From Curtobacterium flaccumfaciens (GTDB taxonomy: Bacteria; Actinomycetota; Actinomycetes; Actinomycetales; Microbacteriaceae): 64,000 bases of DNA. Positions 18,309-30,366 of the stretch are shown here, piece after piece; the stretch's first letter is position 1; every line of letters begins with the position of its first letter. A program made the position numbers and the translations under genes. The notes beneath the pieces are model-generated. The model was not told where the DNA came from. It saw nothing but the letters and a program-made list of their open reading frames with translations, and did not search any database. The DNA is taken from assembly GCF_004361695.1 (NCBI RefSeq), contig NZ_SNVW01000011.1, positions 62,001 to 126,000 of the forward strand. The letters are read 5' to 3'.

Positions 18309-18986
18309 TCAGTCGAGGGACCGTCGCAGCCAGCGCTCGACGCCCTCGACGTGCGACACCACGAGGGACTGCACGAGCTGCGGATCACGACGGCGGATCG
18401 CGTCCACGATCGCCGCGTGCTCATCGAGCGTGCGCTGCACCGAGCCGTTCTGGGTGAGGCCGCGCCAGACCCGCACGCGCACGGTCTTGCTCGACAGTGC
18501 GTCGAGCAGACCGGAGAGGTACTGGTTGCCGCCGATGCCGGCGATCGTCGAGTGGAACAGCAGGTCGTGGGCGACGAGGTCCTCGACGCCGGTGTCCTCG
18601 CCGACCGACGCCATCAGGGTCGCCAGGTCGTCGATCTGCTGCTCGGAAGCGCGCGCGGTCGCGAGGACGGCCGAGGCGGGCTCGAGGATGCGACGGACCT
18701 CGAGCAGGTCGACGAGCGAACGGTCGTGGTGCATGTCGACGACGAACGACACCGCCTCGAGCAGGACCCCCGGCTCGAGCGAGGTCACGTAGGTGCCGTC
18801 GCCGCGGCGGACGTCGAGCACGCGGATGAGCTCGAGGGCCTTCACCGCTTCGCGCAGGCTGTTCCGGGACAGCCCGAGCGACTCGCTCAGTTCCTTCTCT
18901 GGTGGGAGGCGCTGCCCGGGTTGGAGCTCGCCGCTCACGATCATCTGCTGGATGCGTGCGATCGCGTCGTCGGTCAACGAAGCCAC
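18309..18986 (-). CDS. GntR-family regulator, FadR/FCD subfamily
   Basis: 225 residues. Winged helix at the N-terminus (IVSGELQPGQRLPPEKELSE, then LGLSRNSLREAVKALE) and an all-helical FCD effector domain with metal-site histidines (HDLLFHSTIAGIGGN; VVSHVEGVERWL). The GTG at 18986 was chosen because AGGAGGT lies 6 nt upstream; a longer frame to 19046 lacks one. The cluster has no other regulator, so it most likely controls the fucose genes through the shared ACAT-N3-ATGT sites, with a pathway intermediate as effector. Confidence 0.88.
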   Translation of the reverse strand: MASLTDDAIARIQQMIVSGELQPGQRLPPEKELSESLGLSRNSLREAVKALELIRVLDVRRGDGTYVTSLEPGVLLEAVSFVVDMHHDRSLVDLLEVRRILEPASAVLATARASEQQIDDLATLMASVGEDTGVEDLVAHDLLFHSTIAGIGGNQYLSGLLDALSSKTVRVRVWRGLTQNGSVQRTLDEHAAIVDAIRRRDPQLVQSLVVSHVEGVERWLRRSLD

Positions 18987-19082
18987 GTCACCACCTCCTG
19001 GGGACCCGGCCACGAGCCGGACCGGACAGGGCGACGATACCGGCACCGCGCCTCCAGGCCGACGCGGCGGAGCCGACCGCCA

Positions 19083-19835
19083 TCAGGCGGGCCGGAGCCG
19101 GAGTGCCTGCATCCCGCCGTCGACCGCGAGGTCGACGCCCGTCGTCGACCGGGCCAGGGGGCTCGTCAGGTAGGCGACGGCCTCGGCGACCTCCTCGGGG
19201 GCGACGAGCCGTCCGTGCGGTTGGCGGGCCTCGAGGGCTGCGCGCTCGGCGGCAGGGTCCGGCGCGCTGGCGAGCAGACGACCGACCCACGGGGTGTCCG
19301 CGGTGCCCGGGTTGACGGCGTTGACGCGGATGCCCTCGCGGAGGTGGTCAGCGGCCATCGCGCGGGTGAGCGCCGCGATGGCGCCCTTCGTGGCCGAGTA
19401 CAGCGCGCGCTGCGGGAGCCCCGCGGTCGCGGCGATCGAGCACGTGTTGACGATGCTCGCGTTCCCGGAGGCACGGAGGTGGGGGAGTGCGGCTCGCGAG
19501 AGGCGGACGGCGCCGAGGACGTTGACCTCGTACACGCGACGCCACTCGTCGTCGGGGTTGTCCTCGACGGTGCCCTGTGCGCCGATGCCCGCGTTGTTGA
19601 CGAGGACCTCGAGGCCGCCGAGTTGTTCCACTGCAGTGGCGACCGCTGCGCGCACGGACTCGTCGGACGAGACGTCGCACGTGACCGAGACGACGCCCTC
19701 GGCACTCGACGGCTGCAGGTCGAGCACCGCCACGGTGGCACCGCGGTCCTGCAGCGCGGTGACGATCGCGGCGCCGATGCCGGACGCGCCGCCGGTCACG
19801 ATCGCCCGGACGCCCTGGTGGGTGGCGCCGTCCAT
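19083..19835 (-). CDS. SDR, probable 2-keto-3-deoxy-L-fuconate dehydrogenase
   Basis: 250-residue short-chain dehydrogenase. Cofactor motif TGGASGIG, structural NNAG, catalytic Ser plus YSATK, and the C-terminal VDGG. In the non-phosphorylating L-fucose route an SDR oxidises 2-keto-3-deoxy-L-fuconate to the 2,4-diketo acid; the adjacent FAH hydrolase would cleave that product. Start and the FAH stop overlap by one base (TGATG). An L-fucose dehydrogenase role is the alternative, but the AKR in the operon already fits that step. Confidence 0.85.
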   Translation of the reverse strand: MDGATHQGVRAIVTGGASGIGAAIVTALQDRGATVAVLDLQPSSAEGVVSVTCDVSSDESVRAAVATAVEQLGGLEVLVNNAGIGAQGTVEDNPDDEWRRVYEVNVLGAVRLSRAALPHLRASGNASIVNTCSIAATAGLPQRALYSATKGAIAALTRAMAADHLREGIRVNAVNPGTADTPWVGRLLASAPDPAAERAALEARQPHGRLVAPEEVAEAVAYLTSPLARSTTGVDLAVDGGMQALRLRPA

Positions 19836-20698
19836 CACGCCGCCCCGATCGTCTGCCGCTGCGAGCCGAGGCCCTCGGCGGTGAGCTCGACCACGTCGCC
19901 GGGCTGCAGGTACGGCGCACCGCTGCCCAGCGCGACGCCCGCCGGGGTGCCGGTGCTGATGACGTCGCCCGGGTACAGGACCATGAACTGGGACAGGTAC
20001 CGGACGATCTCGGCGGGCCGGAAGATCATGTCCGCCGTGGTGCCGTCCTGCCGGACCTCGCCGTTCACGGTGAGGCGCAGCGTGAGTGCCTCCGGGTCGA
20101 GGCCGGCGTTCTGCAGTGACGACGGGGTCACGAGCCACGGCCCGAGCGGGTTGAAGGTCTCGCACGACTTGCCCTTGTCCCACTGCCCGCCGCGCTCGAG
20201 CTGGAACTCCCGCTCCGAGACGTCGTTGGCGATCGCGTACCCGGCGATGTGGGTCGCGGCCTCGGTCTCGGACTCGCAGTAGCGCGCGGTCGTGCCGATG
20301 ACGATCGCGAGTTCGATCTCCCAGTCGGTCTTCGTGCTGCCACGGGGGACCAGGACCTCGTCGTCGGGGCCGATCACCGTCATCGGGTCCTTCATGAAGA
20401 CGATCGGTTCGGTCGGGATCTCCGCGCCCGTCTCGGCGGCGTGGTCGCGGTAGTTCAGGCCGATGCAGACGACCTTGCCGGGCCGGGCGACCGGAGCGCC
20501 GCGGCGGAGGGCATCGGCGTCCGGGACGGGCCGCAGGTCGCCGGCGCTGCGGGCGTGCTGCACACGGCCGATCGGGTCGGACGCCAGGAACGACCCCGAG
20601 ACGTCGTTCGTGATCGGGCGGAGGTCGAGGACCTCGCCGTCGGTGTCGATGGCCACGGGGATCTCGCTCCCCGCCGGGCCGAGTCGTGCGAACCGCAT
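19835..20698 (-). CDS. FAH-family hydrolase, probable 2,4-diketo-3-deoxy-L-fuconate hydrolase
   Basis: 287 residues of the fumarylacetoacetate hydrolase fold. Typical segments are GLNYRDHAAETG, PIVFMKDPMTVIGP, the acidic metal ligands in DWEIELAIVIG and AIANDVSEREFQ. The enzyme would split 2,4-diketo-3-deoxy-L-fuconate into pyruvate and L-lactate, the last step of the pathway. GAGGAACG precedes the ATG. An operator-like palindrome lies 37 bp upstream, so the FAH-SDR pair probably has its own promoter. Confidence 0.87.
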   Translation of the reverse strand: MRFARLGPAGSEIPVAIDTDGEVLDLRPITNDVSGSFLASDPIGRVQHARSAGDLRPVPDADALRRGAPVARPGKVVCIGLNYRDHAAETGAEIPTEPIVFMKDPMTVIGPDDEVLVPRGSTKTDWEIELAIVIGTTARYCESETEAATHIAGYAIANDVSEREFQLERGGQWDKGKSCETFNPLGPWLVTPSSLQNAGLDPEALTLRLTVNGEVRQDGTTADMIFRPAEIVRYLSQFMVLYPGDVISTGTPAGVALGSGAPYLQPGDVVELTAEGLGSQRQTIGAA

Positions 20699-20734
20699 CG
20701 TTCCTCGCTCTCCTGCTGCGCCGGTGCAGCGGAA

Positions 20735-20745
20735 ACATCCTATGT
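20735..20745 (-). promoter_or_regulatory. GntR-type operator before the FAH gene
   Basis: On the minus strand the site reads GACATAGGATGTTTC, identical at 14 of 15 positions to the site in the fucose operon promoter. Its core ACAT-N3-ATGT is a perfect palindrome. It lies at the end of the lactonase gene. Confidence 0.65.
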
Positions 20746-21630
20746 CTGCGGGTGCTTCCCGGCAAGGTAGACGCGGTCGGCGGTGCCTCGGAACACCGCG
20801 TCGCGCTCGTCGTCACCGAGGTCGTCGAGGGCGGTCGTGGTCGCGGTGAGGACCTCGGCGTAGTCGGTCGCGAGGGTCGACACCGGCCAGTCGGAGCCGA
20901 ACAGCGAGCGGTGGGGGCCGAAGAACTCGACGACCTCGCGGGCGTAGCGGGCCACCGGGCGGTGGCGCCAGTCGTCGCCGGCCTCGGTGAGGAGGCCGGA
21001 GACCTTGCAGACCACGTTCGGGTGGGCGGCGAAGTCGCGCATCCGGGCGCGCCAGGCGTCGGCCACGGCGGGGTTGTCGCGCTCGGTTTCGGTGGCGTCC
21101 CGTTTGCCGGATCGGTCCCGCGCGATGGGGGGTTTGCCGGCGTGGTCCAGCACGAACACCGCCGCCGGCACCGTGTCGACGAGTGCCAGGGCGGCAGCGT
21201 GCTCCCGCTCGCGGACGAGCAGGTCGAACACGAGCCCCGCATCGGCCAGGGCGCGGACACCACGGGCCACGTCGGGACGCGCGAGCCAGCCGGGGTCGGG
21301 TTCGTCCTGCGCCTGGTGCCGGATACCGACCAGCCGGTCCCCGCCCGGTAGCGCCAGGGTGGCCGCGAGCCGGTCGGCCACGTCCGGCGCGGTCAGGTCC
21401 GCCCAGCCGACGACGCCGACGACCGGCTCGGGCTGCGCGAGGAGCCACGCCGTCTCGCCGGGGTCGTGCACGGCCTGCACGACGATGGTCCGCGTGACGT
21501 CGGTGTCCCGCGAGACCGCGCGGAGGTCGTCCACGTCGAACCGTCGCCGGATCGGGGCGACGGAGTCGTCCATCCAGGGGTACGGGCGGTCGGCCGGGTC
21601 CCAGAGGTGGTGGTGAGCGTCGATGATCAC
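20740..21630 (-). CDS. Amidohydrolase (COG3618), probable L-fuconolactonase
   Basis: 296-residue amidohydrolase barrel. It starts with the metal-binding IIDAHHHLWDP, followed by GIRHQAQDEPDPGW and the later His and Asp ligands (VFVLDHAGKPPI; LFGSDWPV). COG3618 members hydrolyse sugar lactones such as L-fucono- and L-rhamnono-lactone. Here it would open L-fuconolactone to L-fuconate between the AKR and dehydratase steps. The start is a GTG. A near-palindromic operator lies 19 bp upstream. Confidence 0.85.
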   Translation of the reverse strand: MIIDAHHHLWDPADRPYPWMDDSVAPIRRRFDVDDLRAVSRDTDVTRTIVVQAVHDPGETAWLLAQPEPVVGVVGWADLTAPDVADRLAATLALPGGDRLVGIRHQAQDEPDPGWLARPDVARGVRALADAGLVFDLLVREREHAAALALVDTVPAAVFVLDHAGKPPIARDRSGKRDATETERDNPAVADAWRARMRDFAAHPNVVCKVSGLLTEAGDDWRHRPVARYAREVVEFFGPHRSLFGSDWPVSTLATDYAEVLTATTTALDDLGDDERDAVFRGTADRVYLAGKHPQT

Positions 21631-23210: not shown

Positions 23211-24896
23211 ATGCCGCCCGGACCCGACCCCGAGACCCGCGCCTGGGCCTCGGCCGCCGTCCGACGCTTCGCGGCCGCGACGAACCTGCTCGTCGCCGCC
23301 CGCCGGTTCCGCATCGTCGGCGGCGACCCCCGCGACACGGCCGCGCTGCACGCCCTGCTGACCGGCCTCGGAGCCCGACCCGCCGCCGACCACGAGCCCG
23401 TCGACCAGCTGTGGTGCGCCGGGTCGCCCGACGAGAGCACGGCCGTCGTCGAACGCGAGGCCGACCGTCCCCGCGGCGCCACCCTCGTCGTCGTGGACGC
23501 CGGGCGACACGTGCCCGCCGTCGACGAGGACGCCTTCGGCCCGGTCACGAGCGTCCGACCCGGGGTGCTCGGCGTGCCGGCCCTGTCCGACGACGTCTTC
23601 CTCGTCTCCACCGGCCGCGACCCCGAGGACGACCCCGCCGCCGACGCACGCCTGCGCTGGGCGCGCCGTTCGATGCCCGTCTCGCGAGCGGTCGCCGCCG
23701 AACTCCGCGAGGGCGGGCTGCTCCGCGGCACCCGCATCGGCGTGAGCATGTTCCTCGAGCCGAAGACCGCCGTGCTGAGCCTGCTGCTCCGTGACGCCGG
23801 AGCCGAGGTCGTCGTCTACGCACACGCCGACGAGACGGACGACGCCGTCGCGGATGCGCTCCGGCGCGCGGGGTTGACCGTGCACGCCAGCAGCACCGCG
23901 ACGCTGTCGGAACAGCAGGACCTCGCGCTCGCGATGCTCGACACCCGGCCGCACGTCCTGCTCGACGACGGCTCGCACGTCATCCGGCTCGCCCACCAGG
24001 AGCGCCCGGACCTGCTGCCGACGATGCTCGGTGCGGCTGAGGAGACGACGAGCGGCCTCCGGCCCCTCCGCGTGATGGCATCCCGCGGCGAGCTCGGGAT
24101 CCCGGTGGTCGCCGTCAACGACGCCCGCACCAAGACGTTCTTCGACAACCGGTACGGCACCGGGCAGTCGACGGTGTTCGCCGTGCTCGACCTGGTCGAC
24201 GGGCTCGCGTCCGCCACCCACCGGGTCCGGCCTGGAGGCGCGGCTGTCGTCGCCGGGTTCGGGCACGTCGGCGAGGGGGTCGCGCTGGTGCTCCGCGCGC
24301 TCGGTTTCACCGTCACGGTCGCCGAGACCGACCCGGTCCGCGCCCTGCAGGCGCTGTTCGCCGGGTACGAGGTCGCGCCGCTCGTCGACGCGGTGCGCGA
24401 CGCCGACCTGGTGATGAGCGCGACCGGGGTCGCCGACACGATCGACCTCGCGACGCTCCGGGCCTGTGCGGACGACGCCGTCGTGGCGGTCGCCGGCGGG
24501 GTCGACGGCGAAGTGGCGATCGACGCGGCGCTCGCCGCGGGCGCTGTGCGGACCGGGATCGGCCGGAAGGTCGAGCGCTTCGCCTGGCCGGACGGCCACC
24601 ACGTGCTCGTGCTCGACGGCGGCGGGTGCATCAACATCACCGCTGCCGAGGGCAACCCGATCGAGATCATGGACCTGTCCTTCGCCGCGCAGCTCGGCGC
24701 CGTCCGGATGCTCCTCGAGCGCGGCGACGAGCTCGACCGCGCCGTCGTGCCGATCGACCCCGCGGTGGACCACGCGACCGCCCGCGCGGCGCTCGCCGCC
24801 TTCGGGAGCCGACCCGCGCCTCCCGGCCCGCTCGCCGCGCAACCCGCGGACCGTGCGCCCGACGTCCGGACCCGCCGTTTCGGGGACCCGTCGTGA
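23211..24896 (+). CDS. Adenosylhomocysteinase paralogue, possible S-inosylhomocysteine hydrolase
   Basis: 561 residues. From about 155 on it follows S-adenosylhomocysteine hydrolase: Asp252/253 in LLDDGSH, Glu277/278 in AEETTSG, VNDARTKTFFDNRYG with Lys308 and Asp312, and the NAD motif GFGHVGEGVA (349-358). Three features differ. The adenine-binding HMTxQ/E position reads FLEPK (Phe181, Glu183, Lys185). The C-terminal Lys/Tyr tail of normal enzymes is absent. About 150 unassigned residues precede the domain. A lysine in place of the residue that contacts the purine 6-amino group suits a 6-oxo purine. With the deaminase-like neighbour, this suggests cleavage of S-inosylhomocysteine to homocysteine and inosine. 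It is coupled to the next gene by GTGA. Confidence 0.75.
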   Translation: MPPGPDPETRAWASAAVRRFAAATNLLVAARRFRIVGGDPRDTAALHALLTGLGARPAADHEPVDQLWCAGSPDESTAVVEREADRPRGATLVVVDAGRHVPAVDEDAFGPVTSVRPGVLGVPALSDDVFLVSTGRDPEDDPAADARLRWARRSMPVSRAVAAELREGGLLRGTRIGVSMFLEPKTAVLSLLLRDAGAEVVVYAHADETDDAVADALRRAGLTVHASSTATLSEQQDLALAMLDTRPHVLLDDGSHVIRLAHQERPDLLPTMLGAAEETTSGLRPLRVMASRGELGIPVVAVNDARTKTFFDNRYGTGQSTVFAVLDLVDGLASATHRVRPGGAAVVAGFGHVGEGVALVLRALGFTVTVAETDPVRALQALFAGYEVAPLVDAVRDADLVMSATGVADTIDLATLRACADDAVVAVAGGVDGEVAIDAALAAGAVRTGIGRKVERFAWPDGHHVLVLDGGGCINITAAEGNPIEIMDLSFAAQLGAVRMLLERGDELDRAVVPIDPAVDHATARAALAAFGSRPAPPGPLAAQPADRAPDVRTRRFGDPS

Positions 24897-26257
24897 CGTC
24901 CGGGCGCACCGCCGACCACACGGTGACCGTGCACGCGGCGCGCATCGTCGTCCCGATGACCGCACCGCCGATCGCGGACGGTGCCGTCGCCGTGCAGGAC
25001 GGTCGGATCCTGCACGTCGGTGACCGCTCGTGGGTCGTCGACCAGCTCGCCGGCACCGGCACGACGTTCACCGAACGGCGCTGGCGCGGCGCGCTGCTGC
25101 CCGGCCTGGTGAACGCGCACTCGCATCTGCAGTACACCGGCATGGCCAGTGTCGGGCAGCGGCAGTACGAGGGTTTCGAGGACTGGGCGGCCGCGTTCAA
25201 CCGCGACTACGCCGAACCGCACGACTGGCGTGCCGAGGCCGCTGCCGGCGCTGAGCTGTCGATCCTGGCGGGCGTGACGAGCATCGCCGACGTCGTCACC
25301 GACCTCGAAGCGGCGACCGCGCTCGAGACGCACGGCCTCGGCGGCATCGCCTACTGGGAGGTCATGGACTGGGAGAACGAGGCGTGGCAGACCCACGGCC
25401 GCGACCAGGTCCTCGCCGAACTCGAGCGCTTCCCGACCACCCCGGGCGCCGGACTCTCGCCGCACGCCCCGTACTCGCTCGACGTCGCACCCCTGCTCGA
25501 GCTGCCGGACATCGTGCGACAGCGCGGCCTCCGGCTGCACCTGCACCTCGGTGAGGCGGCGTTCGAGGGGGAGCGGGTCGCACTCGGACCCGTCCCCGGA
25601 CTCGACGGCGTCGACGGCGTCGGCCACGGCAGCGACTGGCACCTGGCGAACGCGCCGTCGTTCCGGGCCATGCGGGCGCTCGGCTTCGGTGCCAGCGCGA
25701 CCGCGTTCGTCGACCGGCTCGGCGTGCTCGGGCCGGACTGCCACATCGCGCACGGGGTCTACATGACCGCGGCGGACCGGGCGCTGCTCCGGGCCCGCGG
25801 GACCGCCGTCGCGCTCTGCCCGCGCTCGAACGCGGTCATCGGCCTCGACCCGCCACCCGTCGCGGACTACCTCCGCGAGGGCAGCCCGATCGCGATCGGC
25901 ACCGACTCGCTGTCGTCGTCGCCGTCGCTCGACCTGATGGCCGACGTCACCGCACTGCACCGGATCGCCCGCGCCCAGGGGTACGGCCACCGGGACCTGC
26001 ACGAACGGCTCCTCGCCGCCGCGACCCTCGGTGGCGCGCACGCGATGGGACTCGCCGTCGGGGCGGACCGGGTCGGGCACCTCGCCGTCGGCGCGCGGGC
26101 CGACCTGGCCGTGTTCGACGTCGACGCCCGCACCGTGCCGGACGCGCTGGCCGAACTCGTCGAGGACGGAGCCGGCCGTGCGGTCGCGACCGTCATCGGC
26201 GGTGTCGTCCGGGCCGCCGACGGCGACCTCACCCCGAACCACGTGGAGGAACCATGA
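24893..26257 (+). CDS. Amidohydrolase, SAH/5'-deoxyadenosine deaminase-like
   Basis: 454 residues of the TRZ/ATZ-type amidohydrolase family. Metal ligands: His76 and His78 in NAHSHLQYTG, His218 in LHLHLGE with Glu221, and Asp338 in IGTDSLSSSPSLD. LSPHAPYS (His191) and CHIAHGVYM complete the site. Related enzymes deaminate SAH, methylthioadenosine, 5'-deoxyadenosine or guanine-like rings. The GTG start is embedded in the stop of the SAH-hydrolase-like gene, and the product would match that enzyme's suspected substrate. The next gene starts in its stop codon. Confidence 0.8.
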   Translation: MTSGRTADHTVTVHAARIVVPMTAPPIADGAVAVQDGRILHVGDRSWVVDQLAGTGTTFTERRWRGALLPGLVNAHSHLQYTGMASVGQRQYEGFEDWAAAFNRDYAEPHDWRAEAAAGAELSILAGVTSIADVVTDLEAATALETHGLGGIAYWEVMDWENEAWQTHGRDQVLAELERFPTTPGAGLSPHAPYSLDVAPLLELPDIVRQRGLRLHLHLGEAAFEGERVALGPVPGLDGVDGVGHGSDWHLANAPSFRAMRALGFGASATAFVDRLGVLGPDCHIAHGVYMTAADRALLRARGTAVALCPRSNAVIGLDPPPVADYLREGSPIAIGTDSLSSSPSLDLMADVTALHRIARAQGYGHRDLHERLLAAATLGGAHAMGLAVGADRVGHLAVGARADLAVFDVDARTVPDALAELVEDGAGRAVATVIGGVVRAADGDLTPNHVEEP

Positions 26258-26751
26258 CCGAGACCGCACCCCGACCCGGCATGGCCGCACGACGCACCGT
26301 GGGCGGCGACCTGATCGAGTGGCTCGACGTCCCGAAGCGCGCCGTCGCCCTCGGCATGGAGCCGCACCCGGAGGGCGGCTGGTACGTCCGCACCTGGACC
26401 TCGCCCGCGACGGTGCCGACCGCCGCCGGTGACCGTCCGGGCGCCACGCTCATCCACTTCCTGCTGCCCCCGGGCGAGGCCTCCGCCTGGCACCGGGTGA
26501 CGAGCGACGAGATCTGGATGTGGCACGGCCCCGACGCCGTCGACCTGCAGCTCGGTGGCGACGGCGACGAGCCCGTGCCGGGAGCGACCATCACCCTCGG
26601 ACCCGACGCCGGACGCGACCGCGTGAACGACGCGCAGGCGTTCGTGCGTGGCGGGGTCTGGCAGCGGACGATCCCGGGCGACGGCGAGGTGCTGCTGAGC
26701 TGCCTCGTGTCGCCGGGGTTCTCGTTCGACGACTTCACGATGGCGGACTGA
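26254..26751 (+). CDS. DUF985 cupin-family protein
   Basis: 165 residues. Typical DUF985 elements: HPEGGWYVRTW, TLIHFLLPPGEASAWHRV, EIWMWHGPDAV and VSPGFSFDDFTM. The single cupin barrel keeps several His that could bind metal or a small ligand. The function of the family is unknown. The ATGA overlap ties it to the deaminase-like gene, so a role in the same nucleoside or sulphur metabolism is plausible but unproven. Confidence 0.85.
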   Translation: MTETAPRPGMAARRTVGGDLIEWLDVPKRAVALGMEPHPEGGWYVRTWTSPATVPTAAGDRPGATLIHFLLPPGEASAWHRVTSDEIWMWHGPDAVDLQLGGDGDEPVPGATITLGPDAGRDRVNDAQAFVRGGVWQRTIPGDGEVLLSCLVSPGFSFDDFTMAD

Positions 26752-26776: not shown

Positions 26777-27568
26777 ATGGACTCCGGCCGCGTCCCCGCC
26801 CTCGCTCGAGCGGCGCTCGAGGCGCCGTTCGAGTTCGCCTACGTGGACGAGACGGGCGACGAGGGCGACCCTGCGGCCTCTCCCGGGGCGACCCGTACGT
26901 ACACGCTGGGCTGCGTCCTCGTCCCCGGCGGAGACTGGACCGATCGCCTGGACTGGCTGGCCGGAGTCCGTCGCGAGTTCCGTGACGCCTACGGCATCCT
27001 CGTCCGCCACGAGCTCAAGGCGAACGTGCTGCTCCGCGGACGGGGCGACCTCCGCGACCTCGGGCTCGGTGACGGTCAGCGGCGTGACGTGTTCCGCCGG
27101 TCGCTCGCCGCGTTGACGGTGGCGTCGTCCGGTGTCTTCGCGGTCGTGATCGACAAGGAAGCGCGGCCGATGGACTACCAGCCGGAGGACCGGGCGTGGA
27201 CCTACCTGCTCCAGCGTCTCCGACTCCGTTCGGAGCGGTCCGGCAAGCCGATCATCCTCGTGCACGACGGCGGAGACGACGCGACGGTCCGCGCGATCCA
27301 CCGCCGGTTCCGCCGACACAGCTTCGCTCCCGGTGGTGTCCGGGTCACGGCGCCGTTGCTGGTCGAGGACCCGGTTCCGCGCGACTCCGCGTCGTCGTAC
27401 TTCATCCAGGCCGCCGACCTCGTGGCGTACGCGGCGTTCCGACGGTTCCAGGCGCCGGGCGCGAAGAGCGGCAGTGTCTGTGACGAGACGATGTGGGACG
27501 AGCTCCGGCCGGTCTGGCGGACCGAGGTCACGAACGCCCGCCGGGACGCGATCGTCGTCTGGCCGTGA
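26777..27568 (+). CDS. DUF3800-domain protein
   Basis: 263 residues. The family marker YVDETGDEGD is at the N-terminus, followed by RHELKANVLL, ILVHDGGDDA and SSYFIQAADLVAYAAFRRFQ near the end. The acidic residues in these positions suggest an RNase H-like metal site, but the activity is not established. DUF3800 genes are scattered, frequently transferred and sometimes found in defence regions. Here it stands alone between housekeeping operons, with its own palindromic promoter and a tandem-repeat tail region. Confidence 0.85.
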   Translation: MDSGRVPALARAALEAPFEFAYVDETGDEGDPAASPGATRTYTLGCVLVPGGDWTDRLDWLAGVRREFRDAYGILVRHELKANVLLRGRGDLRDLGLGDGQRRDVFRRSLAALTVASSGVFAVVIDKEARPMDYQPEDRAWTYLLQRLRLRSERSGKPIILVHDGGDDATVRAIHRRFRRHSFAPGGVRVTAPLLVEDPVPRDSASSYFIQAADLVAYAAFRRFQAPGAKSGSVCDETMWDELRPVWRTEVTNARRDAIVVWP

Positions 27569-27859: not shown

Positions 27860-28681
27860 GTGACCCGTTCCCTCCGCCTCACCCTCGCCGTCGCCACCGC
27901 CGCGGTCGCCGCCATCGCCCTGTCGGCCTGCTCCGCCGGGGGCAGCGGCAACGCCGACGGCACCGTCACCGACGGCAAGCTCACCATCGCGACCGGCCAG
28001 CCCGCGTACTCGCCCTGGGTCGAGGACAACAAGCCCCAGTCCGGCAAGGGCTTCGAGTCCGCGGTGGCCTACGCCGTCGCGAAGGAGATGGGTTACGCGA
28101 AGTCCGACGTCGTCTGGAAGCGCAGCACGTTCGACAGCGCGATCGCCCCCGGCCCGAAGGACTGGGACCTCAACGTCCAGCAGTTCTCGATCGACGCGAA
28201 GCGCAAGAAGGCCGTCGACATGTCGACGCCGTACTACACGACCACCCAGGCCGTGGTCACGACCACGACCTCGAAGGCCGTCGACGACACGACCATCGCG
28301 GCGCTCAAGAAGGACGCGATCGGTGTCGCCACCGGGTCCACGTCGATCGCGAGCGTGAAGAGCGTCCTCGGGGTCACCCCGCAGGTGTTCAACTCGAACG
28401 ACGACGCCGTCCTCGCGCTCAAGTCGGGCCAGATCGACGCGATCGTCACCGACCTGCCGACCGCGTTCTACATGGCCGCCGCGCAGCTCGACGACGGCAC
28501 GGTGTCCGCGCAGTTCCCGGCGGACGGCAAGGGCGACCAGTTCGGGTTCGTGCTGCCGAAGGACTCGAAACTGACGAGCAAGGTCGACAAGGCGCTGAAG
28601 GCGCTGAACGACGACGGCACGCTCGAGGACCTGCAGACGAAGTGGCTCTCCTCGGAGACCGGTACGCCGGTCCTGAAGTAG
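27860..28681 (+). CDS. Polar amino acid-binding lipoprotein
   Basis: 273 residues. Signal peptide and lipobox LSAC near residue 23 place it on the outer face of the membrane. The mature part is a family 3 solute-binding protein: LTIATGQPAYSPWV, GKGFESAVAYAVAKEMGY, DLNVQQFSIDAKRKKAVDMS and DAIVTDLPTAFYMA. The ligand is probably a polar amino acid or related compound. The start is a GTG. The permease and ATPase follow. Confidence 0.9.
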   Translation: MTRSLRLTLAVATAAVAAIALSACSAGGSGNADGTVTDGKLTIATGQPAYSPWVEDNKPQSGKGFESAVAYAVAKEMGYAKSDVVWKRSTFDSAIAPGPKDWDLNVQQFSIDAKRKKAVDMSTPYYTTTQAVVTTTTSKAVDDTTIAALKKDAIGVATGSTSIASVKSVLGVTPQVFNSNDDAVLALKSGQIDAIVTDLPTAFYMAAAQLDDGTVSAQFPADGKGDQFGFVLPKDSKLTSKVDKALKALNDDGTLEDLQTKWLSSETGTPVLK

Positions 28682-28708: not shown

Positions 28709-29587
28709 ATGACCCTGCCAGCAGGTGCCGGGACGCCGGTGGCCACCCCCGCGCCGAGCCCGGTCGAGCTCGAGCGTCGGCTCTACCGCCGGCAGCGCGG
28801 TCGCCGGGCCGTGGTGGTGTCGGTCGCGTCGACGCTCGTCGTCATCGCGATCGCCTACTTCGGCGTCGTGAACACCCCGGGCTGGGCTGCGGTCCAGCAG
28901 TCGTTCTTCGATCCGCAGACGGCGATCGAGTCGTTCCCCTCGATCCTCGAGGGACTCTGGCTGAACATCCGGATCCTGTTCTTCAGCGCGATCGGCGTCG
29001 CCGTGTTCGGCACGCTCCTCGCCGTGGTGCGAGGGCTGCGGAACCCGGTGTTCTTCCCGCTGCGGATGCTCGCGACCGGGTACACCGACCTGTTCCGCGG
29101 GCTGCCGCTCATCATCGTCCTGTACCTGGTGGGCTACGGGATCCCCGGCCTCGGGGTCTTCCCGCGACTGCCCGCCGAGGTCTGGGGCACGATCGCGATC
29201 ACCCTGACGTACTCGTCGTACATCGCCGAGGTGCTCCGCGCCGGCATGGAGGCCGTACACCCGTCGCAGCGTCTGGCAGCCCGGTCGCTCGGCCTCTCGC
29301 ACGCGAAGACGCTGCGGCTCGTGGTGCTGCCGCAGGCGATCCGGAAGGTCACGCCGGCGCTCATGAACGACTTCGTGTCGATGCAGAAGGACGTCGGGCT
29401 CGTGTCGATCCTCGGCGCGGTGGACGCGGTCCGCTCGGCGCAGATCGCCCAGGCCGAGACCTACAACTTCACGCCGTACTTCGTCGCCGGTCTGCTGTTC
29501 GTGGTGATCAGCCTGCCGCTGATCCGCGTCACCGACGCGATCGCGCGTCGCCAGCAGCGGCGCGAACAGATCGGAGGGACCGTATGA
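28709..29587 (+). CDS. Amino acid ABC permease, HisM/GlnP type
   Basis: 292 residues. A long N-terminal cytoplasmic part and one helix precede the permease core, whose EAA loop reads AARSLGLSHAKTLRLVVLPQ. TDLFRGLPLIIVLYLV is typical of polar amino acid permeases. A single permease gene implies a homodimeric channel. It overlaps the ATPase start by ATGA. Confidence 0.9.
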   Translation: MTLPAGAGTPVATPAPSPVELERRLYRRQRGRRAVVVSVASTLVVIAIAYFGVVNTPGWAAVQQSFFDPQTAIESFPSILEGLWLNIRILFFSAIGVAVFGTLLAVVRGLRNPVFFPLRMLATGYTDLFRGLPLIIVLYLVGYGIPGLGVFPRLPAEVWGTIAITLTYSSYIAEVLRAGMEAVHPSQRLAARSLGLSHAKTLRLVVLPQAIRKVTPALMNDFVSMQKDVGLVSILGAVDAVRSAQIAQAETYNFTPYFVAGLLFVVISLPLIRVTDAIARRQQRREQIGGTV

Positions 29588-30366
29588 GTGACAGCGGCTC
29601 GGGCCTGGAGGCACGGATCACCCCCGACACGTCGGCCGCGGTGCTCGAGCTGCGCGGCCTCCGCAAGGCCTTCGGCGAGCACGAGGTCCTGCGCGGGATC
29701 GACCTGACCGTGCACCGCCACGAGGTCATCTGCGTCATCGGCGCGTCCGGCTCCGGCAAGTCGACCCTGCTCAAGACGGTGAACCTGCTCGAGGGCATCG
29801 ACGACGGCGAGATCCTGCTGCAGGGCACGGACATCGCGGACCCGCGGATCGACGTCGACGCGACCCGGGCCCGCATCGGCGTGGTCTTCCAGCAGTTCAA
29901 CCTGTTCCCGCACATGACCGTGCTCGACAACGTGACGCTCGCGTCGCGGCAGGTGCACGGCGTCGGGAAGGCGCAGGCCGAGGAGACCGCTCGTCGGCTG
30001 CTCGACCGGATCGGCCTGGCCGACTTCGCCGGGGCCTACCCGGATCGGCTCTCCGGCGGGCAGCAGCAGCGCGTCGCCATCGTGCGGGCGATCGCGTCCG
30101 ACCCCGAGCTGCTGCTGCTCGACGAGGTCACGAGTGCCCTCGACCCGCAGCTGGTCGGCGAGGTGCTCGACCTGGTCACGGAGCTCAAGCGGCAGGGCTC
30201 CACGATCCTGATGACCACGCACGAGATGCACTTCGCGCGGAACGTGGCCGACCGGATCGTGTTCCTGCACCGGGGCGAGGTCGTCGAGCAGGGCACCCCG
30301 GCCGAGGTCCTCGACGCCCCCGGCCACCCGGCCCTCGTCGAGTTCCTCGCCCGCGTCCACGCCTGA
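29584..30366 (+). CDS. Amino acid ABC importer ATPase, GlnQ type
   Basis: 260 residues with all motifs intact: Walker A GASGSGKST, Q-loop FQQFNLFPHMTVLDN, signature LSGGQQQR, Walker B LLLLDEVTSALD and switch MTTHEM. It energises the uptake system encoded by the two genes before it. The dispersed 13-mer CCTGGAGGCACGG lies inside the coding start (29604-29616) and encodes LEAR. Confidence 0.92.
   Translation: MSDSGSGLEARITPDTSAAVLELRGLRKAFGEHEVLRGIDLTVHRHEVICVIGASGSGKSTLLKTVNLLEGIDDGEILLQGTDIADPRIDVDATRARIGVVFQQFNLFPHMTVLDNVTLASRQVHGVGKAQAEETARRLLDRIGLADFAGAYPDRLSGGQQQRVAIVRAIASDPELLLLDEVTSALDPQLVGEVLDLVTELKRQGSTILMTTHEMHFARNVADRIVFLHRGEVVEQGTPAEVLDAPGHPALVEFLARVHA

Follow-up and report, generated by a model that had tools for sequence, protein, structure and literature searches.

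Hydrolases with the fold of S-adenosylhomocysteine (SAH) hydrolase (SAHH) that are linked to S-inosylhomocysteine (SIH) include the SIH hydrolase (SIHH; EC 3.13.1.9) of Methanocaldococcus and the SAHHs of Pyrococcus, Methanococcus, and Thermotoga that carry the motif HxExK, the published signature of SIH-preferring enzymes among the archaeal and T. maritima enzymes tested (PMC10978960). A hydrolase with ExK is paired with a deaminase in the DadD, or methylthioadenosine (MTA)/SAH deaminase, route (M. jannaschii; T. maritima TM0936). In actinobacteria, deamination of SAH to SIH, the conversion proposed for the module described here, was reported in 1988 for Streptomyces flocculus, as cited in PMC10978960, with no cleavage of SIH by the Streptomyces SAHHs that were tested; this deamination is therefore not new to actinobacteria, in which the first-pass annotation of the present DNA knew of no such route. 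Here we describe a 64,000-nt stretch of Curtobacterium flaccumfaciens DNA (contig NZ_SNVW01000011.1, positions 62,001–126,000; hereafter the window) that encodes a SAHH paralogue, SAHL (23211–24896, plus strand, 561 aa), with FLEPK at the motif, followed by a metal-dependent deaminase of the purine-nucleoside type (24893–26257, plus strand, GTG start) and an amino-acid-type ABC importer. Both enzyme genes, FLEPK, and Lys185 had been noted at first pass, and both genes were confirmed at these coordinates.

The nearest named genomes are of Curtobacterium species (96% to Curtobacterium sp. MCBA15_008), a genus of soil and leaf bacteria. SAHL has the SAHH fold, the NAD site, the redox Lys/Asp/Asn, and ExK in common with SIHH and the HxExK enzymes, but it has neither the motif His nor the His-Phe gate, is also missing a third active-site His, carries a fused relic domain, is encoded with an importer, and belongs to a genome that also has a canonical SAHH. 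By analogy, the module would work like the DadD–SIHH route, with the same logic of a deaminase followed by an ExK hydrolase; unlike in the DadD/TM0936 route, the deaminase is from a distant cog0402 branch (sequence-closest to DR_0824), and the genes are coupled to one another, in some cases fused, and form a single unit that includes transport and cupin genes.

We infer that the module imports, deaminates, and cleaves, in an NAD-dependent manner, an adenosyl amino acid, and we regard this as likely; whether the substrate is specifically SAH/SIH, with release of homocysteine, is evenly poised. The importer would bring in an external adenosyl amino acid, most likely SAH, and the deaminase would turn its adenine into hypoxanthine, yielding SIH. 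SAHL would then read the hypoxanthine via Glu183 and Lys185, oxidize the ribose 3′-OH with bound NAD via Lys308, Asp312, and Asn313, and cut between the nucleoside and the sulfur amino acid, so that homocysteine and inosine could feed sulfur, methionine, and purine supply.

SAHL: Retained and Lost Active-Site Residues

SAHL matches the adenosylhomocysteinase model NF004005 (NCBIfam) with 346 bits (cut-off 275) as well as Pfam AdoHcyase and AdoHcyase_NAD, and these matches, together with structure matches and alignments, define a SAHH-type NAD-dependent hydrolase-like core (23631–24896, plus strand). By sequence and fold alike, SAHL is closest among solved structures to the HxExK enzymes from T. 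maritima, P. furiosus, and M. maripaludis (TMt 0.86–0.91); the AlphaFold 2 (AF2) model of the entire protein, N-terminal head included, has a pLDDT of 93.5. Both the canonical HxTxQ/E motif and the 40-residue bacterial insert are absent, SAHL having FLEPK and a short T. maritima-like core. FLEPK corresponds to residues 181–185, where the canonical SAHH of the same genome has HMTVQ, and Lys185 aligns with Gln63 of that enzyme; according to alignment with solved structures and with the canonical enzyme, Glu183 and Lys185 occupy the two base-reading positions. The 3′-redox positions are kept (Lys308, Asp312, and Asn313), as are Asp252/Asp253, Glu277/Glu278, and the GxGxxG site (G349–G354), in line with the first-pass statement that the catalytic Lys and Asp and the NAD site are preserved.

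By contrast with these retained residues, His is lost at three active-site positions, namely Phe181, Gly430, and Asn482, which we take to be His55, His301, and His353 in human numbering, placed through T. maritima; the His-Phe gate (GHF) is absent, with G430-V431 there instead. The same pattern was found across 102 aligned sequences, which include two intact partner subunits with the motif HLEAK (see section “Head Domain and Lost Partner Subunit”). At the first motif position, only the two HLEAK partners have His, all others having Val, Phe, Thr, Ile, or Leu, and the gate-His position is Gly and position 482 Asn in 96 sequences each. Lys308 and Asp312 are invariant (102/102), ExK is kept in 100–101, and Asn313, Asp253, and Glu278 deviate in at most 1–2 sequences. 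The first-pass reading of FLEPK holds for base recognition, and the ExK form it named for archaeal SIH enzymes is that published as HxExK (PMC10978960), but it missed Phe181 in place of the motif His and the losses at 430 and 482.

The motif His has been described as important for catalysis (PMC10978960), and a recent review assigns protonation of the leaving sulfur to H62 (PMC13406329), which by our own mapping is the motif His. Because this residue is lost family-wide, the ExK motif cannot be equated with SIH-hydrolase activity; with the proton donor lost and the other two His nearly always replaced, standard SIH hydrolysis by SAHL is not assured. Since SAHL lacks both the motif His and the His-Phe gate, two defining active-site features, we do not file it as a true SIHH, and its current annotation as an adenosylhomocysteinase is probably misleading. 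Based on the retention of the redox and ExK residues and the loss of the His residues, SAHL looks like an active 3′-redox enzyme with altered 5′-side chemistry. If SAHL were instead a pseudoenzyme with an auxiliary or regulatory function for the deaminase, as in the AHCY-like proteins of animals, the disappearance of three active-site His would be accounted for, and a partner subunit of SAHL did become a clear pseudoenzyme in one locus (L139) and later a bare domain; however, the near-invariance of Lys308, Asp312, Asn313, Asp253, Glu278, and ExK is hard to explain without catalysis, which makes such a role very unlikely.

Module Conservation and Deaminase

By count from the match list, 33 of the 201 genomes sampled in the family of the window organism carry a SAHL orthologue (at least 43% identity). 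Relatives in named genomes are also found in Leifsonia, Microbacterium, Rathayibacter, Schaalia, Actinomyces, Demequina, Acidipropionibacterium, Mycolicibacterium, Nocardia, and Rhizohabitans. Among 52 non-redundant loci outside Curtobacterium, the deaminase is beside or near SAHL in 50, a DUF985 gene is present in 34, and the importer is of the amino-acid ABC type in 34 and of the energy-coupling factor (ECF) type in nine. One of the two loci without a deaminase is at a contig end; the other (L059:6902–8620) has a SAHL copy from which several otherwise invariant motifs are gone, which looks like decay following loss of the partner. Directly adjacent SAHL–deaminase pairs overlap in 76 of 83 cases, 71 by exactly 4 nt. 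Given that the pattern recurs in approximately 100 orthologues, with the deaminase kept in 50/52 loci, it is not due to chance. In the window, the SAHL stop codon and the GTG start of the deaminase likewise overlap by 4 nt; the two were described at first pass as fused in an operon, whereas the window encodes two coupled proteins, and true fusions to a single protein exist elsewhere (L051, L052, and L134).

The deaminase is overlapped by 4 nt by a DUF985 protein gene (Pfam Cupin_5; 26254–26751, plus strand). Between this cupin and the importer there is a DUF3800 gene (26777–27568, plus strand), placed likewise in the closest relative (L034), which is probably not a member of the module, as most other modules lack DUF3800.

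The deaminase (amidohydrolase, cog0402 type) retains the metal-site residues H76/H78 (HxH), H216, H218, E221, H287, and D338, which are kept in 62–63 of 63 deaminases. The best fold matches of its predicted model (pLDDT 90.5) are adenosine, MTA, and SAH deaminases, which supports the resemblance to SAH deaminases proposed at first pass. There are also weak sequence matches to 8-oxoguanine, guanine, and triazine enzymes, which would suit a deaminase that acts on an unrelated ring of this kind and is paired with SAHL incidentally; against this, the two genes are fused in some loci and coupled almost universally, the pair is preserved as the importer type changes, and nucleoside deaminases lead the fold matches, so that we judge an unrelated ring highly improbable. 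At E ≤ 1e-50, no relatives of the deaminase were found in 81 genomes of one large-genome genus, possibly Streptomyces, in a search that lacked a positive control.

Importer and Putative Substrate

The importer genes of the window encode an SBP_bac_3 substrate-binding protein (SBP; 27860–28681), a polar-amino-acid-type ABC permease (28709–29587), and a polar-amino-acid-type, GlnQ-like ABC ATPase (29584–30366), all on the plus strand; the permease and ATPase genes are conserved beside SAHL. The SBP has kept the two alpha-amino-acid-site residues, Arg in 48/48 and Asp in 46/48, that hold the alpha-carboxylate and the alpha-amino group in glutamine-type binding proteins, and its ligand is therefore probably an amino acid. 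The SBP_bac_3 fold, this Arg/Asp pair, the permease, and the ATPase are all common to GlnHPQ-type importers, although the window SBP scores below each curated amino-acid binding-protein model.

In other lineages, the ABC importer gives way to an unrelated ECF type, comprising an ATPase pair, an S component, and a T component (Pfam and NCBIfam). Uptake of a common substrate best explains why the enzymes stay as the importer class changes, and the inclusion of importer genes in the module argues for uptake and salvage. The first-pass annotation had left the downstream importer genes, which point to scavenging, unconnected with the enzyme pair. Among the papers available, nothing relevant was found on the uptake of SAH by bacteria or on ECF transporters with SAH.

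The SBP site, the deaminase folds, the HxExK preference, and the intact HLEAK enzyme that accompanies the deaminase in two loci (L197 and L054) together favor SAH or a closely related adenosyl-sulfur amino acid, without identifying the compound. Several observations weigh against the proposed salvage of SAH through SIH. The sulfur-protonating motif His is absent from every SAHL, and the gate and third His are nearly always replaced. The deaminase is below curated cut-offs, with 99.6 bits against the 522 needed for 5′-deoxyadenosine deaminase and 39.8 against 779 for the MTA/SAH deaminase model. In profile comparison, the solved structure nearest to it is DR_0824, which we take to be an aminofutalosine deaminase; the alignment covers most of the protein and the motif CPRSN is common to both, although the module has no futalosine-type genes and its partners are different. 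A few modules have no recognized importer within the stretch read, and control by an S-adenosylmethionine (SAM) or SAH riboswitch was rejected, as none was found in the window region or in 20 related loci.

The same module could instead serve another substrate, namely an inosyl compound with a leaving group that can depart without protonation, for example S-inosylmethionine, a sulfonium derived from imported SAM, or another adenosyl-sulfur compound. The replacement of the proton-donor His by Val, Phe, Thr, Ile, or Leu beside essentially invariant redox residues is in keeping with this, and the alpha-amino-acid site of the SBP suits SAM as well as SAH. However, SAM lacks direct evidence and is short-lived outside cells, and the full set of His in the basal HLEAK partner suggests that the ancestral system acted on an ordinary thioether; we consider a substrate of this kind fairly unlikely.

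Head Domain and Lost Partner Subunit

The N-terminal head of SAHL (residues ~1–140; 23211–23630, plus strand) has no Pfam match of its own, and was recorded at first pass as an unassigned head of 150 residues. In profile-profile comparisons (hhalign), heads of the window type (type A) matched stand-alone partner genes of a second type of locus (type B) at 99% (E 1e-18) and the NAD domains of intact SAHH at 92% (E 8e-8), as opposed to 3% for the NAD domain of SAHL itself and ~0% for controls. Internal duplication of the NAD domain of SAHL is disfavored because the head profile matches the NAD domains of intact SAHH and of the partners rather than its own. In the AF2 model, strands and helices alternate in the head region, with block-mean pLDDT mostly 90–97.

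In type-B loci, a separate gene that overlaps SAHL by 4 nt codes for a degenerate NAD-binding domain only; in L139, the partner is full length without the motif and the redox Lys; and L197 and L054 encode the same deaminase and, immediately upstream of SAHL, an intact partner (HLEAK, all His). In several type-B loci, as in L054, a gene for a LacI-type regulator is oriented divergently from the module. In the SAHL tree, the SAHLs with intact partners are basal (94), followed by L139, type B, and then type A, which is the order expected for stepwise decay of the partner. As judged from profiles, the decay series, and the AF2 model, the head is a degenerate NAD-binding (Rossmann) domain left over from a second SIHH-type subunit that has been lost, and of which the intact, decayed, and fused stages survive. 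The ancestor probably had two SIHH-type subunits: the HLEAK subunit, with all His, would have decayed to the NAD-domain relic that now forms the head, and the other, SAHL, would have become the sole enzyme, with changed 5′-side chemistry. A further reading, which we put forward tentatively, is that SAHL is no SIH hydrolase but has been neofunctionalized, its 3′-oxidation machinery being used for a different cleavage (either of S-inosylmethionine or a similar sulfonium, or the NAD-dependent release of hypoxanthine), and that it forms the core of an uncharacterized bacterial route for adenosyl-amino-acid uptake, with the head as the fossil of the displaced SIHH subunit.

SAH Recycling in SAHL-Encoding Genomes

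The check for a standard sahH recommended at first pass showed that the window genome encodes a canonical enzyme (591 bits), as well as an MTA/SAH nucleosidase (MTAN); LuxS was not found in this genome. The module is therefore not needed for internal recycling, and the earlier suggestion that the pair replaces normal SAH recycling does not fit the window genome. Elsewhere, 11 SAHL genomes lack canonical SAHH, and eight of these also lack a TIGR01704-type nucleosidase, which might indicate that the pair takes over, or adds to, SAH recycling inside the cell. However, LuxS is present in six of these eight, some with a short MTAN-like gene beside luxS, and importer genes would be unnecessary for recycling; we thus regard an internal recycling function as decidedly unlikely. 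Missing canonical SAHH was rejected as proof of SAH recycling by SAHL, and is not used as support, because LuxS is found in most of these genomes, accompanied in some by a short MTAN-like gene. The short proteins in question, identified by eye and not reported by the TIGR01704 search, have an MTAN-like “TGVGKVNAA” stretch and are encoded close to luxS (L186:4251–4829, L187:4056–4709, and L191:422–1048).

LuxS also bears on whether SAHL is an NAD-dependent depurinase that halts at the 3′-keto stage and converts SIH to hypoxanthine and S-ribosylhomocysteine. Such an enzyme would require the 3′-oxidation and base-reading residues that SAHL has kept and might dispense with the 5′-acid and the gate (proposed to protect the 3′-keto stage) that it has lost, and the LuxS of several SAHL genomes without canonical SAHH is a potential user of the product. 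Nevertheless, the window genome has no LuxS, the MTAN-like protein beside luxS in several LuxS genomes would itself supply S-ribosylhomocysteine, and the chemistry is deduced solely from missing residues, so that depurination appears unlikely.

Other SAHH-Like Groups and Neighboring Genes

Other SAHH-like proteins were observed in these lineages. A second group in Microbacteriaceae (L062–L073, e.g., L063:6983–8143) has HLEPK, LDNG, and GEN replacing FDN, and is encoded in a nucleoside operon, the neighbors resembling, by sequence start, an IclR regulator, adenosine deaminase, PTS EIIA/EIIB, and nucleoside hydrolase. A third class, in distant Actinomycetota (L156–L171 and L173), has PIEAK, with the gate His lost and GHP kept, and adjoins an ECF-type transporter in four of the loci read (neighborhoods L199, L202, L203, and L205); no relation was detectable between the ECF S components of type-B and PIEAK modules. 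Within the PIEAK-class family, intact IHLEAK copies are present either alongside PIEAK in one genome or in separate genomes. Full HxExK (IHLEAK) SAHHs with all His occur in Actinomycetota (L174–L176, L180, and L183), a wider distribution than the euryarchaeal and Thermotoga one usually quoted.

Upstream in the window, on the minus strand (18309–21630), a catabolic cluster encodes a GntR/FCD regulator, an SDR, an FAH-type hydrolase, and an amidohydrolase_2 protein; it looks like sugar-acid catabolism, with no relation to the SAHL module.

Implications

SIH metabolism is known from Euryarchaeota and a small number of thermophilic bacteria. What has been reported from actinobacteria is the deamination half alone, without an enzyme that cleaves SIH. 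The SAHL module is a concrete candidate for this missing half, linked to transport, and, if confirmed, would constitute an uncharacterized nutrient-scavenging route spread through the actinobacteria. It would also provide a natural series in which the fold of an essential enzyme loses catalytic His residues in one copy while the other copy is reduced to a fused relic, making enzyme neofunctionalization testable step by step.

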